Below, one piece after another: positions 2,493 through 43,595 of a DNA stretch of 64,000 nt (its first letter is position 1; every line of letters starts with the position of its first letter). The position numbers were made by a program, and so were the translations under genes. The notes beneath the pieces were generated by a model that had not been told where the DNA came from, searched no databases, and worked only from the letters and a program-made list of their open reading frames with translations. The stretch is from Bergeyella zoohelcum ATCC 43767 (GTDB lineage: Bacteria > Bacteroidota > Bacteroidia > Flavobacteriales > Weeksellaceae), in contig NZ_JH932293.1 of assembly GCF_000301075.1 (NCBI RefSeq), positions 668,344-732,343 on the forward strand, given 5' to 3'.

Positions 2493-4205
2493 ATGATGAG
2501 TCAAAAATGGATTTATAATCCCGAACCCGATGAAGAAATTGTAGATGGCCTCAGTATGTCACTGGGATTTGGAACTTTCGAATCCAAACTTTTAGTGATG
2601 AGAGGTATTGATAATTATGAAAAGGCAAGGGAATTTTTCAAACCTAAAATGGAAGATATCCATAATCCTTTTTTGATGACCGATATGCAAAAAGCCGTAG
2701 GAAGAATAGCTACGGCAATAGAGAATGGTGAAAAAATACTGGTCTATGGAGATTATGATGTAGATGGTACTACCGCTGTAGCACTGATGTACCTCTACCT
2801 TTCTAAAATAGTAGAAAAAAAATACTTAGACTTTTATATTCCTGATAGAAATGCCGAAGGTTATGGCATCTCTACCGAAGGGATAGACTTTGCCCATGCT
2901 CATAATTTCAGCCTCATCATTGCCTTAGACTGTGGAATTAAAGCATTGGATAAAATAGACTATGCCAATGAATTGGGCATTGATTTTATCATCTGTGATC
3001 ACCACCTTCCTGGTGAGCAAATCCCCAACGCATACGCCGTACTAGACCCTAAAAGAAAAGACTGCCGATATCCCTATAAAGAACTTTCAGGTTGCGGCGT
3101 GGGCTTTAAACTGTGCCAAGGACTCAATAGCATCTACCGAATTCCTGATAATGAACTGTATGAATTAACAGATTTATTGGCCATTTCCATTGCCGCAGAC
3201 ATTGTGGCAATGACGGGAGAGAATAGACAACTGGCAAAAATAGGACTAAAAACCCTCAGAAAAACCAGAAATTTAGGACTCAGACTCCTCATCCCTGAGG
3301 AGAAATTGGCTACTTTTGATATCTCGAATATCGTTTTTGAGATCGCTCCGAAAATCAATGCTGCTGGTAGAATTTCTCATGGAAAAGCGGCGGTGGAACT
3401 GATGATTTCTGACAACTTGAAACACGCTCACCAAATTGTAGATGACATTAAAAATCTCAATGACGAAAGAAGAGAGCTGGATACAGAATCTACCGTATCT
3501 GCCATAAAACAAGTGAAAGAAACAGGACAGGAAAATAACTACACCACCATAGTATATGACCCAAATTGGAATAAAGGGGTGATAGGAATTGTAGCCTCCA
3601 GACTAACGGAAACTTATTATAAACCCACCTTAGTCTTCACTCAAGGCTCTGATAATGAACTGGTAGCTTCTGCAAGATCTGTATCTGATTTTGATGTCCA
3701 CGCCGCCTTAGATAGCTGTTCAGAATATTTCCTAAAATTCGGTGGACATCAGGCCGCTGCAGGACTTTCTATGAGACCTGAAAAATTTGAAACATTCAAG
3801 AAAAAATTTGAACAAGTAGTAGCTGAACAAATTCAGGAACACCAAAAATCCCCCTCTATCACGATTGATTCCGAAATTCAAATCGAAGAATTAAATAGAG
3901 AGTTCATCAGCTTTCACCGAAAACTCGCTCCATTTGGACCTCAAAACATGAAACCCATTTTCGTACTAAAAAACCAAAAAGTGGCAGGATATGTGAAAAC
4001 GATGGGAAAAGATAATAATCATCTCAAATTTCATATCAAAAGTGCTACTGCTAAAAACTTTGAATGTGTGGGCTTTAAACTTGGAAAATTTGCGGAAGAT
4101 TTCAGAAATAAAAGTTTTGATATCGCTTTTACCTTAGAAGAAAACCACTGGAAAGGAAATGTAACACATTATTTCAGCATCCGAGATGTGAAATTCATTG
4201 ACTAA
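2493..4205 (+). CDS. recJ: Single-stranded-DNA-specific exonuclease RecJ
   Basis: The 570-residue protein fits RecJ, the 5'-3' single-strand exonuclease of recombination and mismatch repair. The DHH phosphoesterase core is clear: YGDYDVDGTT at about 85-94, the ALDCGIKA motif near 146-153, and the DHH triad at about 169-171, all binding catalytic Mn/Mg. The DHHA1 domain follows with GGHQAAAGLSM near 416-426, and a C-terminal OB-like domain completes the protein. The start lies 4 nt after a -7 box; ATGATG gives two possible starts one codon apart. nadD and a DUF3817-like gene follow on the same strand and may be co-transcribed. Confidence 0.96.
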   Translation: MMSQKWIYNPEPDEEIVDGLSMSLGFGTFESKLLVMRGIDNYEKAREFFKPKMEDIHNPFLMTDMQKAVGRIATAIENGEKILVYGDYDVDGTTAVALMYLYLSKIVEKKYLDFYIPDRNAEGYGISTEGIDFAHAHNFSLIIALDCGIKALDKIDYANELGIDFIICDHHLPGEQIPNAYAVLDPKRKDCRYPYKELSGCGVGFKLCQGLNSIYRIPDNELYELTDLLAISIAADIVAMTGENRQLAKIGLKTLRKTRNLGLRLLIPEEKLATFDISNIVFEIAPKINAAGRISHGKAAVELMISDNLKHAHQIVDDIKNLNDERRELDTESTVSAIKQVKETGQENNYTTIVYDPNWNKGVIGIVASRLTETYYKPTLVFTQGSDNELVASARSVSDFDVHAALDSCSEYFLKFGGHQAAAGLSMRPEKFETFKKKFEQVVAEQIQEHQKSPSITIDSEIQIEELNREFISFHRKLAPFGPQNMKPIFVLKNQKVAGYVKTMGKDNNHLKFHIKSATAKNFECVGFKLGKFAEDFRNKSFDIAFTLEENHWKGNVTHYFSIRDVKFID

Positions 4206-36723: not shown

Positions 36724-37698
36724 TTATCCCCCTTGATTTTTAAAATATAAATACCATTTTATAAAGTTCTTTTTAGCCTCAAAACGAAGTCCTCTATGCA
36801 AGGTTAATTTCTCTTTCAAATGCGTAAAATAGGCTTCTAAACGATTGGTAGTATAAGGGATTTCACTATCTTTCAGATATGCAAACATATTGGGTAAGGC
36901 ATTGATAATATGATAAGTAGCTAAGTGTAGATTTTTATGTTTAAACCACTGAAATCCAGATTCTTCATTCATTGATTTTTCTTCTATAAAATATTGATTT
37001 TCAACATACCACTGGTAAAATCTATTTACCCAATCGTTAGCCTGTTCATTGGTTTTTAGATGCGTAATTTCTTTGGATAAACACAAAAGCTGTTGGCTAA
37101 TAAAATGTTTTGGGCTACCACTTAAATAGTTCTTAATCTGTCGTTTAATATGCACTAAACATCTTTGGATAATCACCTCTGGAAACACCTTTTTTACCGC
37201 TCCTAAAATAGATTTATGCCCATCGCAGGTTACACTGTAAACTGCCACATTCAGCTTCTTTAAGTTTTCCAAATCTTGCTTTATATCACGAAGTTTTTCC
37301 TTGTTGGTTTGGCGGTAAAGTTGCACATATCGAATGTCATAATCGTAGTAGAGTATCAGGCATAATCCATTGGAAAAGTAGGTGCCATCAATCAAGAGAT
37401 GAACCTTTGTCTTGCTTTTGATGCTGAGGGTAGGAACTTGTGAAAGGTAATGTTTAAAGAGGTTTTGAAGGGTAGATTGGCTCATTGAGCTATCCCTCGA
37501 AAGGGTTTTATAGACTTGCCTTTCCATTATCCATTTTCTGAACCAAATGAATTGATTTTTTCTTTTTACACCAATGTTTTTAATCGTAAAATTTGCCTGA
37601 CAATCTCCACATTGAAAGCGTTGTTTTCCATTTCTTTTTCCTTTTTTGATGATGTGATTAGAATCACAAACTGGACATTTTTTATTCGTTTTGGACAT
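36724..37698 (-). CDS. Transposase, zinc-ribbon/MULE type (copy 3)
   Basis: A 324-residue protein identical in sequence to the transposase at 20233: zinc ribbon, DGTYF, CDGHKS, CLVHIKR and NRLEAYF motifs all intact. The 18-bp hairpin again ends 3 nt before its ATG. Exact identity with the other copies indicates recent spread. Confidence 0.94.
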   Translation of the reverse strand: MSKTNKKCPVCDSNHIIKKGKRNGKQRFQCGDCQANFTIKNIGVKRKNQFIWFRKWIMERQVYKTLSRDSSMSQSTLQNLFKHYLSQVPTLSIKSKTKVHLLIDGTYFSNGLCLILYYDYDIRYVQLYRQTNKEKLRDIKQDLENLKKLNVAVYSVTCDGHKSILGAVKKVFPEVIIQRCLVHIKRQIKNYLSGSPKHFISQQLLCLSKEITHLKTNEQANDWVNRFYQWYVENQYFIEEKSMNEESGFQWFKHKNLHLATYHIINALPNMFAYLKDSEIPYTTNRLEAYFTHLKEKLTLHRGLRFEAKKNFIKWYLYFKNQGG

Positions 37699-37826: not shown

Positions 37827-38330
37827 TTATGCTTCTTGTACCAATACTCTCTGTCCTAATTCTTTATCAAAGAGGTAGAGTGCAGAAGGATTATCTATTA
37901 CCATATTGATTTTGCTTACCAGCTGTGAGGCATTTGCTTCCTCTTCTACCTGTTCATTTACAAACCATTGTAGAAAATTGGTAGTAGGGAAATCATTTAC
38001 TTCGTTCGCTACTTTTAAGATATTAAAAATACTCTGAGATACTTTTTTTTCATGTTCCAGAGCAAGTGCAAAGATGGTTTTCTCATCTGCAAAATCATGT
38101 GGAGGAGCATCTACAGCACCTAATTTTATCGTTCCTCCCAAATCATTAAGATAGTCAAAGAATTTTTCTGCATGCATGAGCTCTTCCTTAGACTGTACAC
38201 GGAAATAATGTCCAATGCCATCTAGGTCTCTACCATAAAACCATGCAGACATAGAGAGGTAAAGCTGAGCTGCGTATTGTTCGTGAGTAATTTGTTCGTT
38301 AATTAATCTTTCGATTTCTGGATGTATCAT
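37827..38330 (-). CDS. Ferritin, non-haem iron storage
   Basis: A 167-residue ferritin of FtnA type. The di-iron centre residues are visible: Glu in NEQITHEQYAAQLYLSMSAW, the E-x-x-H pair in SKEELMHAEKFFDYL, and E/Q residues in FVNEQVEEEANAS. It stores iron as a 24-mer in the cytoplasm. A Cys-rich small gene ends 12 bp upstream in the same direction, so the two are probably co-transcribed. IS copy 3 lies downstream of the stop. Confidence 0.95.
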   Translation of the reverse strand: MIHPEIERLINEQITHEQYAAQLYLSMSAWFYGRDLDGIGHYFRVQSKEELMHAEKFFDYLNDLGGTIKLGAVDAPPHDFADEKTIFALALEHEKKVSQSIFNILKVANEVNDFPTTNFLQWFVNEQVEEEANASQLVSKINMVIDNPSALYLFDKELGQRVLVQEA

Positions 38331-38342
38331 TACTTTATAATT

Positions 38343-38501
38343 TTAGGCTAATTTAAGGTTTCCTGGGCATTTTTTACACCGTTTTCCTTTCTTAAATTTT
38401 TTACAGCACTTTTTCTTAGAACAAAAAAACTCAATATTTGTACTTAAGTTGTTGCAAATCAGTGATTGGTTGGTGTTTGTAGTACTCGTTTGGGTAAGCA
38501 T
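38343..38501 (-). CDS. Cys/Lys-rich microprotein upstream of ferritin
   Basis: A 52-residue ORF, MLTQTSTTNTNQSLICNNLS... ending in the cluster CSKKKCCKKFKKGKRCKKCP. Six Cys lie in the whole protein, five of them in the last 26 residues, interleaved with about 14 Lys/Arg. The pattern suggests a metal-binding (Fe/Zn/Cu) or nucleic-acid-binding peptide. Support for it being real: a TATTTTTG box 18 bp upstream, a 12-bp gap to ferritin, and Cys codons that would be improbable by chance at this density. I do not recognise a named family; a role in iron handling is inferred only from the neighbour. Confidence 0.7.
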   Translation of the reverse strand: MLTQTSTTNTNQSLICNNLSTNIEFFCSKKKCCKKFKKGKRCKKCPGNLKLA

Positions 38502-38519
38502 ATTTAGAATTTTTCTATA

Positions 38520-38527
38520 CAAAAATA
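38520..38527 (-). promoter_or_regulatory. -7 box TATTTTTG for microprotein-ferritin
   Basis: Exact TAnnTTTG on the minus strand. The palindrome GAATTAATTC (38536-38545) lies just upstream, near the -33 position, and could be an operator. Confidence 0.5.
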
Positions 38528-38617
38528 AGTATTTTGAATTAATTCTAAATAAAATTATTAAAAAAAATCATCGGTATTTTTTTGAAATTAATTAATGGTA
38601 TATTTTCAGAAAAAAAC

Positions 38618-40090: not shown

Positions 40091-41005
40091 GAACTCATCT
40101 CGACTTTCTCTTTTGTTTAAATTTTCTGAGTCCTAATACGATAAAGGCAAGGTAATTAAAACCTATCCAACTACTTACGGTAGTATCAAAACGATTTAAA
40201 ACCGAACGAAAACTATCCATCCAAGCGTTGCTTCTTTCAATGGCGTAACGCTCTTTGTAGAGTTTTTTATCGAAATAATGTTCCGCTTCAGAGGGTGATT
40301 TTTGGTTTCTTTTGTTTTCACAAATATTGGCTATGATACCTTCTGAGGCGGTTATTTTCCGAAGATTTTCACTGTCAAAACCTGCATCAAAATTCACAAA
40401 TAAACCCTCTGTGGAAATTTCAGCTTTTTTCAAAACGGATGTAATTTCTTGAAAATGAACCTCTATGTTATACAAGTCGTGATGCTGGCCAGATATAGGC
40501 TGAGACATTGCTAACATCAAACCTTGCCTGTCGGACAAGAACAAACTATTCGTTGTTTTTGCTTTTTTACGAGCTTGATATCCTACTTGTTCCCCTCCTT
40601 TTTTTGCGGGTGTTTGGCTACCGTCAAAATCGCAACTTGAACAATCTATTTTCGATTTGTTTTTCTTCAAAATTTCTACCCAACAAGTCTGCCAAGCACC
40701 TTCTTTGCACCATTTCCGGTAATGCCCAAACACGGTTTTATAGCTCGGAACTACCTCTGAAAACAATTGTTCCATTGGTAAAAGTGCCCATTGAATACCT
40801 GTTTTCAATTTGTATAAAATACAGTTAATTATCTCACTAATAGGCGATTTTGGTTTAAATCCTCTTTTTCTTTTAGGTAAATGTGGGATAATTTCTTCTA
40901 CTATCGTATCTTTGTCCAGTACTACAAACAAGGTCTTAGGTTTTTATGTTTCACACCACAAAAATCATAATTCCTTGTTTGTTTTCAAAAAGTCAAGATA
41001 GACTC
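40091..41005 (-). mobile_element. IS5-type element, about 915 bp
   Basis: Ends are imperfect inverted repeats: GAACTCATCTCGACTTT on the left and GAGTCTATCTTGACTTT read inward on the right. A 3-bp duplication GGT (40088-40090 and 41006-41008) fits. One transposase gene on the minus strand. Exact ends are uncertain by a few bases. Confidence 0.75.
40095..40931 (-). CDS. IS5-family transposase (DUF4096 type)
   Basis: A 278-residue DDE transposase. The N-terminal DUF4096-like domain (WALLPMEQLFSEVVPSYKTV, FGHYRKWCKEGAWQ) is followed by DGSQTPAKKGGE with the first Asp, VNFDAGFDSENL with the second and YAIERSNAWMDSFR with the Glu. There is no ATG: the only possible start is TTG at 40931, and it lies inside a 10-bp inverted repeat (40924-40933 with 40973-40982). 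The protein is otherwise full length, so the element may be active. Confidence 0.88.
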   Translation of the reverse strand: MFVVLDKDTIVEEIIPHLPKRKRGFKPKSPISEIINCILYKLKTGIQWALLPMEQLFSEVVPSYKTVFGHYRKWCKEGAWQTCWVEILKKNKSKIDCSSCDFDGSQTPAKKGGEQVGYQARKKAKTTNSLFLSDRQGLMLAMSQPISGQHHDLYNIEVHFQEITSVLKKAEISTEGLFVNFDAGFDSENLRKITASEGIIANICENKRNQKSPSEAEHYFDKKLYKERYAIERSNAWMDSFRSVLNRFDTTVSSWIGFNYLAFIVLGLRKFKQKRKSR

Positions 41006-42620: not shown

Positions 42621-43595
42621 TTATCCCCCTTGATTTTTAAAATATAAATACCATTTTATAAAGTTCTTTTTAGCCTCAAAACGAAGTCCTCTATGCAAGG
42701 TTAATTTCTCTTTCAAATGCGTAAAATAGGCTTCTAAACGATTGGTAGTATAAGGGATTTCACTATCTTTCAGATATGCAAACATATTGGGTAAGGCATT
42801 GATAATATGATAAGTAGCTAAGTGTAGATTTTTATGTTTAAACCACTGAAATCCAGATTCTTCATTCATTGATTTTTCTTCTATAAAATATTGATTTTCA
42901 ACATACCACTGGTAAAATCTATTTACCCAATCGTTAGCCTGTTCATTGGTTTTTAGATGCGTAATTTCTTTGGATAAACACAAAAGCTGTTGGCTAATAA
43001 AATGTTTTGGGCTACCACTTAAATAGTTCTTAATCTGTCGTTTAATATGCACTAAACATCTTTGGATAATCACCTCTGGAAACACCTTTTTTACCGCTCC
43101 TAAAATAGATTTATGCCCATCGCAGGTTACACTGTAAACTGCCACATTCAGCTTCTTTAAGTTTTCCAAATCTTGCTTTATATCACGAAGTTTTTCCTTG
43201 TTGGTTTGGCGGTAAAGTTGCACATATCGAATGTCATAATCGTAGTAGAGTATCAGGCATAATCCATTGGAAAAGTAGGTGCCATCAATCAAGAGATGAA
43301 CCTTTGTCTTGCTTTTGATGCTGAGGGTAGGAACTTGTGAAAGGTAATGTTTAAAGAGGTTTTGAAGGGTAGATTGGCTCATTGAGCTATCCCTCGAAAG
43401 GGTTTTATAGACTTGCCTTTCCATTATCCATTTTCTGAACCAAATGAATTGATTTTTTCTTTTTACACCAATGTTTTTAATCGTAAAATTTGCCTGACAA
43501 TCTCCACATTGAAAGCGTTGTTTTCCATTTCTTTTTCCTTTTTTGATGATGTGATTAGAATCACAAACTGGACATTTTTTATTCGTTTTGGACAT
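42621..43595 (-). CDS. Transposase, zinc-ribbon/MULE type (copy 4)
   Basis: A 324-residue protein identical to those at 20233 and 36724, with all motifs intact (zinc ribbon CPVC/CGDC, DGTYF, CDGHKS, CLVHIKR, NRLEAYF). The 18-bp hairpin at 43599-43638 precedes the ATG. See copy 2 for the description of the family. Confidence 0.94.
   Translation of the reverse strand: MSKTNKKCPVCDSNHIIKKGKRNGKQRFQCGDCQANFTIKNIGVKRKNQFIWFRKWIMERQVYKTLSRDSSMSQSTLQNLFKHYLSQVPTLSIKSKTKVHLLIDGTYFSNGLCLILYYDYDIRYVQLYRQTNKEKLRDIKQDLENLKKLNVAVYSVTCDGHKSILGAVKKVFPEVIIQRCLVHIKRQIKNYLSGSPKHFISQQLLCLSKEITHLKTNEQANDWVNRFYQWYVENQYFIEEKSMNEESGFQWFKHKNLHLATYHIINALPNMFAYLKDSEIPYTTNRLEAYFTHLKEKLTLHRGLRFEAKKNFIKWYLYFKNQGG

Follow-up and report, generated by a model that had tools for sequence, protein, structure and literature searches.

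Iron release from ferritins is described as generally poorly understood in PMC12363616, which names bacterioferritin (Bfr) together with Bfd as a notable exception: there Bfd, which shows a high co-occurrence with Bfr, supports the reductive release of iron. A set of ligands of relevance here is that of FhuF, whose [2Fe-2S] cluster is held by the motif C-C-x10-C-x2-C, called unprecedented in PMC8068687, where the protein is also given as Fur-derepressed. The present analysis concerns a window of 64,000 nucleotides from Bergeyella zoohelcum ATCC 43767 (the whole stretch of DNA that was analysed, to whose numbering the coordinates below refer), in which a gene for a very small cysteine-rich protein stands directly before a ferritin gene. 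We know of no bacterium in which non-heme ferritins have a release partner dedicated to them.

The microprotein gene occupies 38343–38501 on the reverse strand (ATG at 38501, stop codon ending at 38343) and encodes 52 residues with a pI of 9.9, a composition of 12 Lys/Arg versus 1 Asp/Glu, and cysteines at positions 16, 27, 32, 33, 42, and 45. The original prediction had proposed a real ORF of 52 residues with six Cys, five of them in the tail, placed 18 bp after a TAnnTTTG box (TATTTTTG) and ending 12 bp before the ferritin ATG (38330), all of which features agree with the sequence. The conserved tail, residues 27–46 (38364–38423, reverse strand), reads C-x4-CC-x8-C-x2-C-P. When 22 sequences of the family are aligned, its last four Cys do not vary, and the full set of invariant residues, in the numbering of the 52-residue protein, is C32, C33, C42, K43, C45, and P46; the invariant core of the family is CC-x8..10-C-x2-C-P. 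Among the window ORFs of 30–150 codons the microprotein was the sole carrier of CC-x8..10-C-x2-C, which pattern, outside the microprotein family, occurred in 10 ORFs within the 2.1 Mb of DNA examined, the Escherichia coli FhuF being among them.

Since AT-rich DNA commonly contains short ORFs rich in lysine, we considered that the ORF might have arisen by chance and not be a gene, a reading that is refuted by the codon pattern and that we hold to be hardly conceivable: the motif is unique in the window and rare elsewhere, the tail is conserved throughout the class, the promoter layout is likewise conserved, and the pN/pS of the core CC..CP is 0.026 (pN 0.028, pS 1.10; 81 sequences, namely the one in the window and those of 80 loci). 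Purifying selection on the Cys/Lys tail is thus extreme, and that the microprotein is a member of a real gene family can be regarded as virtually certain. The N-terminal half is also constrained in 16 Chryseobacterium-type sequences, which were picked by a pattern (pN 0.064, pS 0.40); in the window microprotein this half is atypical, in lacking the xxPFKxxPLxPAF seen in most relatives. More generally, the N-terminal segments are lineage-specific and differ between members, the invariant part being the Cys core.

As to the spread of the family, the tail was matched in 145 of the 197 genomes of the window organism's own family at E ≤ 10, and the carriers were counted as 139 of those 197 on the basis of E ≤ 1e-4, plus the divergent member in G030 (L048), which was read by eye. 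A profile built on the own family, applied at E ≤ 0.1, reached 98 of the order's 395 genomes, mostly within the own family, and of 17 distant places that were inspected 13 had a motif-bearing ORF and four had none. A second profile found 101 of the 395 Bacteroidia genomes at E ≤ 0.01; we examined 89 of those places (L101–L189), leaving out 12 low-scoring rows, and nearly all of the 89 carry a short ORF with an ending like KKKCCKKYKKGKRCKKCP. Over 87 class loci, the CC pair and the Cys that follows it were separated by 8 residues in 56, by 9 in 19, by 10 in nine, and by 7 in one, the motif being absent in the remaining two. The Cys pattern, whose loss from relatives the original prediction had named as evidence against itself, is thus kept in those relatives, and the prediction withstands its own test because of that conservation. 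A second match in the window organism's own genome (G000:C1:1337633, E 0.0019; L189) was without a motif ORF and was taken as chance.

The hosts that could be named among the matches listed (the best 80 loci of at least 118 stretches) were Chryseobacterium, Epilithonimonas, Kaistella, Elizabethkingia, Cloacibacterium, and Pedobacter, and further Sphingobacterium, Mucilaginibacter, Spirosoma, Fibrisoma, and Saprospiraceae; and at the level of the phylum none was seen outside the class among the matches listed (the best 40 of 296 genomes, all from the same class). Two single cases may be recorded at this point: a family member at L282:6791-6916 lies in a contig labelled as a Spirochaetales MAG, reflecting either transfer or misbinning, and in L090 a run of 13 A at about position 3885, directly behind what could well be the ATG start codon, interrupts the microprotein frame, by either sequencing error or slippage.

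The ferritin gene (37827–38330, reverse strand; PF00210, E 1.5e-42) begins 12 bp downstream of the microprotein gene, with which it is probably co-transcribed, and encodes a protein with a pI of 4.7 whose nearest NCBIfam model is that of the non-heme ferritins, at a score below the cut-off of that model. Within the own family such an adjacency is exceptional: among 83 loci, which number includes some places twice, the sole ones with a ferritin nearby were the window, present as two copies, and four loci of genus g11, which result rules out adjacency as a general rule. In most genomes of the own family, the microprotein gene lies between gcvP-type and J-domain-type genes (12 of 19 maps), names that were read from the translations and not obtained by a profile search. 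The order microprotein–ferritin is that of the window and of genus g11, in whose seven genomes the two genes are, by their coordinates, all side by side; Cloacibacterium normanense (L269) is a named carrier of this arrangement. Two IS256-variant transposases of identical translation (36724–37698 and 42621–43595), each with a near-identical neighbouring ORF, bracket the microprotein–ferritin locus of the window, and a third transposase-like ORF, so named by eye, is located between both copies at 40095–40931.

In the distant families the order is reversed, with a ferritin directly upstream and on the same strand in seven of 13 loci (L082, L086, L087, L088, L089, L091, and L093). Of the 89 class loci, nine had a ferritin in reach—upstream in eight and downstream in one (L104), L102 being the same place as L091—versus a chance expectation of about 0.1–0.3 of the 89, which figure assumes one to three ferritins per 3.5 Mb and, since the loci are related, serves as a guide only. 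The adjacency spans six families (f1, f3, f4, f17, f48, and f55) in both gene orders, and across 120 loci no other neighbour recurs between lineages in the way that ferritin does, the remaining neighbour clusters being lineage-specific as judged from their members.

The distribution of the two genes over whole genomes points in the same direction. The window ferritin was sought in the 197 own-family genomes, whose best E-values fall either at or below about 6e-64 or at or above about 1e-34, and the line for the ferritin type was set at 1e-60 after that gap was seen. Both genes were present in 138 genomes, the microprotein only in one (G159), the ferritin type only in three (G002, G003, and G175), and neither in 55, giving a Fisher p of 6e-44, in which shared descent is ignored. 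Within genera, the two genes were missing together from the same two of 23 genomes in g9 and from the same one of six in g24, and in g26 (36 genomes) each was lost from five, four of which were shared; these losses were counted by genome from the match lists, not as independent events on a tree, and G092 is 93% complete. The genes are not neighbours in g9, g24, or g26, so that physical linkage does not explain their joint loss. Over the 395 genomes of the class, a ferritin match (E ≤ 1e-8) was found in 95 of the 101 genomes with the microprotein versus 168 of the 294 without (p 2e-13). The original prediction had linked the microprotein to ferritin by position, which link stands as regards the adjacency in six families and the co-retention, and has to be narrowed as regards the own family; but shared retention and shared loss make for a closer tie than position would, and we consider that the microprotein is very probably a functional partner of ferritin.

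That partnership, along with the complementary charges of the two proteins, would also suit an iron- or redox-sensing peptide that gates the ferritin pores or steers the assembly or turnover of the shell, with no electron transfer involved, and the lineage-specific N-terminal segments could then serve as docking peptides. It is, however, the Cys core and not the N-terminus that is invariant, and we deem this possibility quite improbable.

The promoter provides information on when the peptide would be made. A −7 element (TATTTTTG) conforming to the TAnnTTTG consensus is present at 38520–38527 on the reverse strand, and between it and the ATG lies a Fur-type box, GTATAGAAAAATTCTAAAT (38502–38520, reverse strand), with 3 mismatches of 18 to ATTTAGAATNATTCTAAAT. 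A partial second box, TTATTTAGAATTAATTCAAAATA (38530–38552, reverse strand), was recognised by eye and holds the palindrome GAATTAATTC (38536–38545), which sequence the original prediction had suggested as a possible operator; it constitutes at best a partial box, and the Fur-type box at 38502–38520 is the better match and the operator that is conserved. Upstream of many of the genes of the family, ATTTAGAATNATTCTAAAT is found, typically just ahead of the −7 element, and the microprotein ATG often follows TAnnTTTG by 3–7 nt (the promoters of L033–L047 and many others); with a start codon only a few bases past that element, the transcripts may be leaderless.

The motif ATTTAGAATNATTCTAAAT was drawn by eye from the microprotein promoters themselves, in 57 of 111 of which it occurs with up to 4 mismatches, versus 1.7 expected from dinucleotide shuffles. 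It is identical to the published Fur box of Riemerella anatipestifer, ATTTAGAATTATTCTAAAT, for which PMC5609570 gives gel shifts with Fur on four promoters, those being R. anatipestifer promoters other than that of the microprotein; a different, E. coli-like Fur box is cited for the same organism in PMC7976709. The window organism's own genome contains 25 sites with up to 3 mismatches, the microprotein site among them, versus seven for the reversed pattern. Of the other 24 sites, 11 stand before iron, heme, or Fe–S genes, and the remaining 13 are inside genes or have no obvious iron link. The 11 sites comprise those of TonB plug proteins (L190, L193), of HmuY with a TonB receptor (L195), of HemA (L191), SdhC (L192), a cytochrome c (L197), aconitase (L198), fumarase (L199), a FixG-type protein (L205), and NuoA (L207), as well as that of a COX1-type oxidase (L204), which site is 304 bp off, with a small ORF between.

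The Fur-type box often gives way, in other lineages, to a second operator, AATACC-N8-GGTATTG. With up to 2 mismatches this operator is present in 29 of the 111 promoters versus 0.2 expected, the motif having been discovered in the same promoters on which it was counted; either operator at up to 3 mismatches is carried by 77 of the 111, and neither by 34. In four whole genomes, the sites of the second operator and those of the control, in the forward orientation, numbered 12 and 1, 6 and 2, 17 and 1, and 10 and 3; and among 13 sites inspected, five named proteins were preceded by it—a SufA-type protein, two HmuY-like ones, a DUF4856 protein, and an imelysin—the others being without an iron link. 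The second operator looks like that of a further iron-responsive system, one present in some of the Bacteroidia. We also observed that this operator covers the −33 region in the promoters of L108, L127, L137, L142, L155, L166, L175, and others, that it occurs in the genomes G681, G703, G524, and G606, and that both operators are present at L146, L147, and L175. Two unrelated operators over iron-type genes argue for selection of the iron control of the microprotein gene, and, judging from these promoters, the gene is in all likelihood iron-regulated. A point against the explanation developed below is that the rise of ferritin at low iron in R. anatipestifer is seen even when Fur is missing (PMC5609570, Table 3); a second study of that organism lists a ferritin-like gene with those that go up under iron limitation (PMC5429918). 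The accessible parts of these two studies make no mention of the microprotein ORF.

As the Fur-type box overlaps the promoter or the start site, Fur would repress the microprotein gene when iron is ample, and the peptide would be made in iron starvation. The four invariant Cys (CC-x8..10-C-x2-C) might then hold a metal centre, most likely an FhuF-like [2Fe-2S] cluster, although this proposal of metal binding derives from the invariant four-Cys pattern, which would also suit zinc. The basic surface of the microprotein could dock on the acidic ferritin shell, a contact favoured by the pI values of 9.9 and 4.7, and the electrons that the peptide passes on would reduce the ferric core and free Fe2+. 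The whole explanation that we prefer, though at somewhat less than even confidence, is therefore one of an iron-regulated microprotein family working with a heme-free ferritin and releasing its iron; the release itself through a Cys-bound redox centre, a step proposed by analogy, is held at a similar, slightly lower level of confidence. Its extension to the entire family, which would make a stand-alone vicinal-Cys [2Fe-2S] microprotein of some 50 residues, induced by starvation, docking on the shell, and reducing the core, the general factor by which the heme-free ferritins of the Bacteroidia release their iron, would be a doubtful step.

The original prediction had instead suggested for the peptide a role in delivering or sensing iron for ferritin, and a metallothionein-like chaperone or buffer for iron (or zinc or copper), which either loads ferritin or shields Fe2+, would indeed be in keeping with a soft, basic, Cys-rich peptide that is linked to ferritin and co-directional with it in the window. 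The link with ferritin implied there is borne out; delivery, in contrast, is less likely than release, since, with a Fur-type box lying across the promoter, expression is to be expected at a time of iron scarcity and not of storage, and thiolates, moreover, prefer softer metals. We therefore consider this alternative unlikely. An equally unlikely one is a zinc- or iron-holding nucleic-acid-binding protein, made in starvation and acting on mRNAs, including that of ferritin, by analogy with the iron sparing of FbpA, FbpB, and FbpC: the small size, the very basic composition (12 Lys/Arg and 1 Asp/Glu), and the Fur-type box agree with such a function, which nevertheless does not readily explain either the co-occurrence with one type of ferritin or four strictly invariant Cys. 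A co-retained, operator-bearing small gene makes the question of how ferritins yield their iron directly testable in tractable laboratory strains, and, were the guess about the ligands true, the family would provide a natural protein of minimal size whose vicinal cysteines hold a metal or a [2Fe-2S] cluster.

Searches of Pfam, NCBIfam, PHROGs, and the PDB sequences returned nothing solid for the family, and 22 of its members compared with Pfam up to E 10 matched neither PF04324 nor any FbpA/B/C family. A weak match to TIGR03950 over the C-terminal end of that model (E 0.65 for the window microprotein and 0.0086 for one relative) is a lead and not a membership; in 15 genomes PF11575 matched none of the microprotein sites at E ≤ 10 and gave no match above its cut-off, and hhalign, in aligning the motifs of FhuF and the microprotein, gave a probability of 1.4%, which is not significant. 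An AlphaFold model on 32 sequences was uninformative, with a mean pLDDT of 57, a pTM of 0.23, and neither helices nor strands long enough to report. Among the papers listed by searches of the open-access literature, none was recognised as describing the family, which, being outside the curated families of these databases and without a name that we could find, would appear to be undescribed; thus a class-wide gene can escape the curated libraries, probably because of its small size and low-complexity composition.

When set beside the known systems, the microprotein shares with the bacterial metallothioneins the small size and the richness in Cys, and differs from them in having just four invariant Cys, a very basic composition, no Pfam match, and iron-type operators versus a control by zinc and cadmium. 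The FbpA, FbpB, and FbpC of Bacillus are small, basic, Fur-controlled proteins, to which extent they resemble it, the difference being the absence of a Pfam sequence match; to our knowledge, neither a conserved Cys core nor a ferritin link has been reported for them. The likeness to FhuF (PF11575; TIGR03950) consists in the CC-x10-C-x2-C with an aromatic residue at CCxx[YF], which is shared exactly by the x10 members, nine of the 87 class loci: the E. coli FhuF ends RRTCCQRYRLPDVQQCGDCTLK, and the x10 member L086 reads SSCCKKFKKGENKRCKKCP. FhuF, however, has 262 residues, whereas the microprotein stands alone at about 50, has a spacing of mostly 8, is linked to ferritin, and lacks a PF11575 match; consequently, in view of that lack and of the non-significant hhalign result, we would say that it may work like FhuF, not that it is one. 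Finally, with respect to Bfd, PF04324 (Fer2_BFD) was absent from 30 of 31 genomes, with none at the own-genome locus, and in the single positive genome matched only inside two long frames of 844 and 1177 codons, so that no stand-alone Bfd was seen. The microprotein differs from Bfd in its Cys spacing, in the absence of a Pfam match, and in a partner nearest to the NCBIfam non-heme ferritins, and resembles it in being a small Cys4 protein tied to a cage of the ferritin family and in co-occurring with its ferritin partner over the 197 genomes; it would be, for a heme-free ferritin, what the ferredoxin Bfd is functionally to bacterioferritin.
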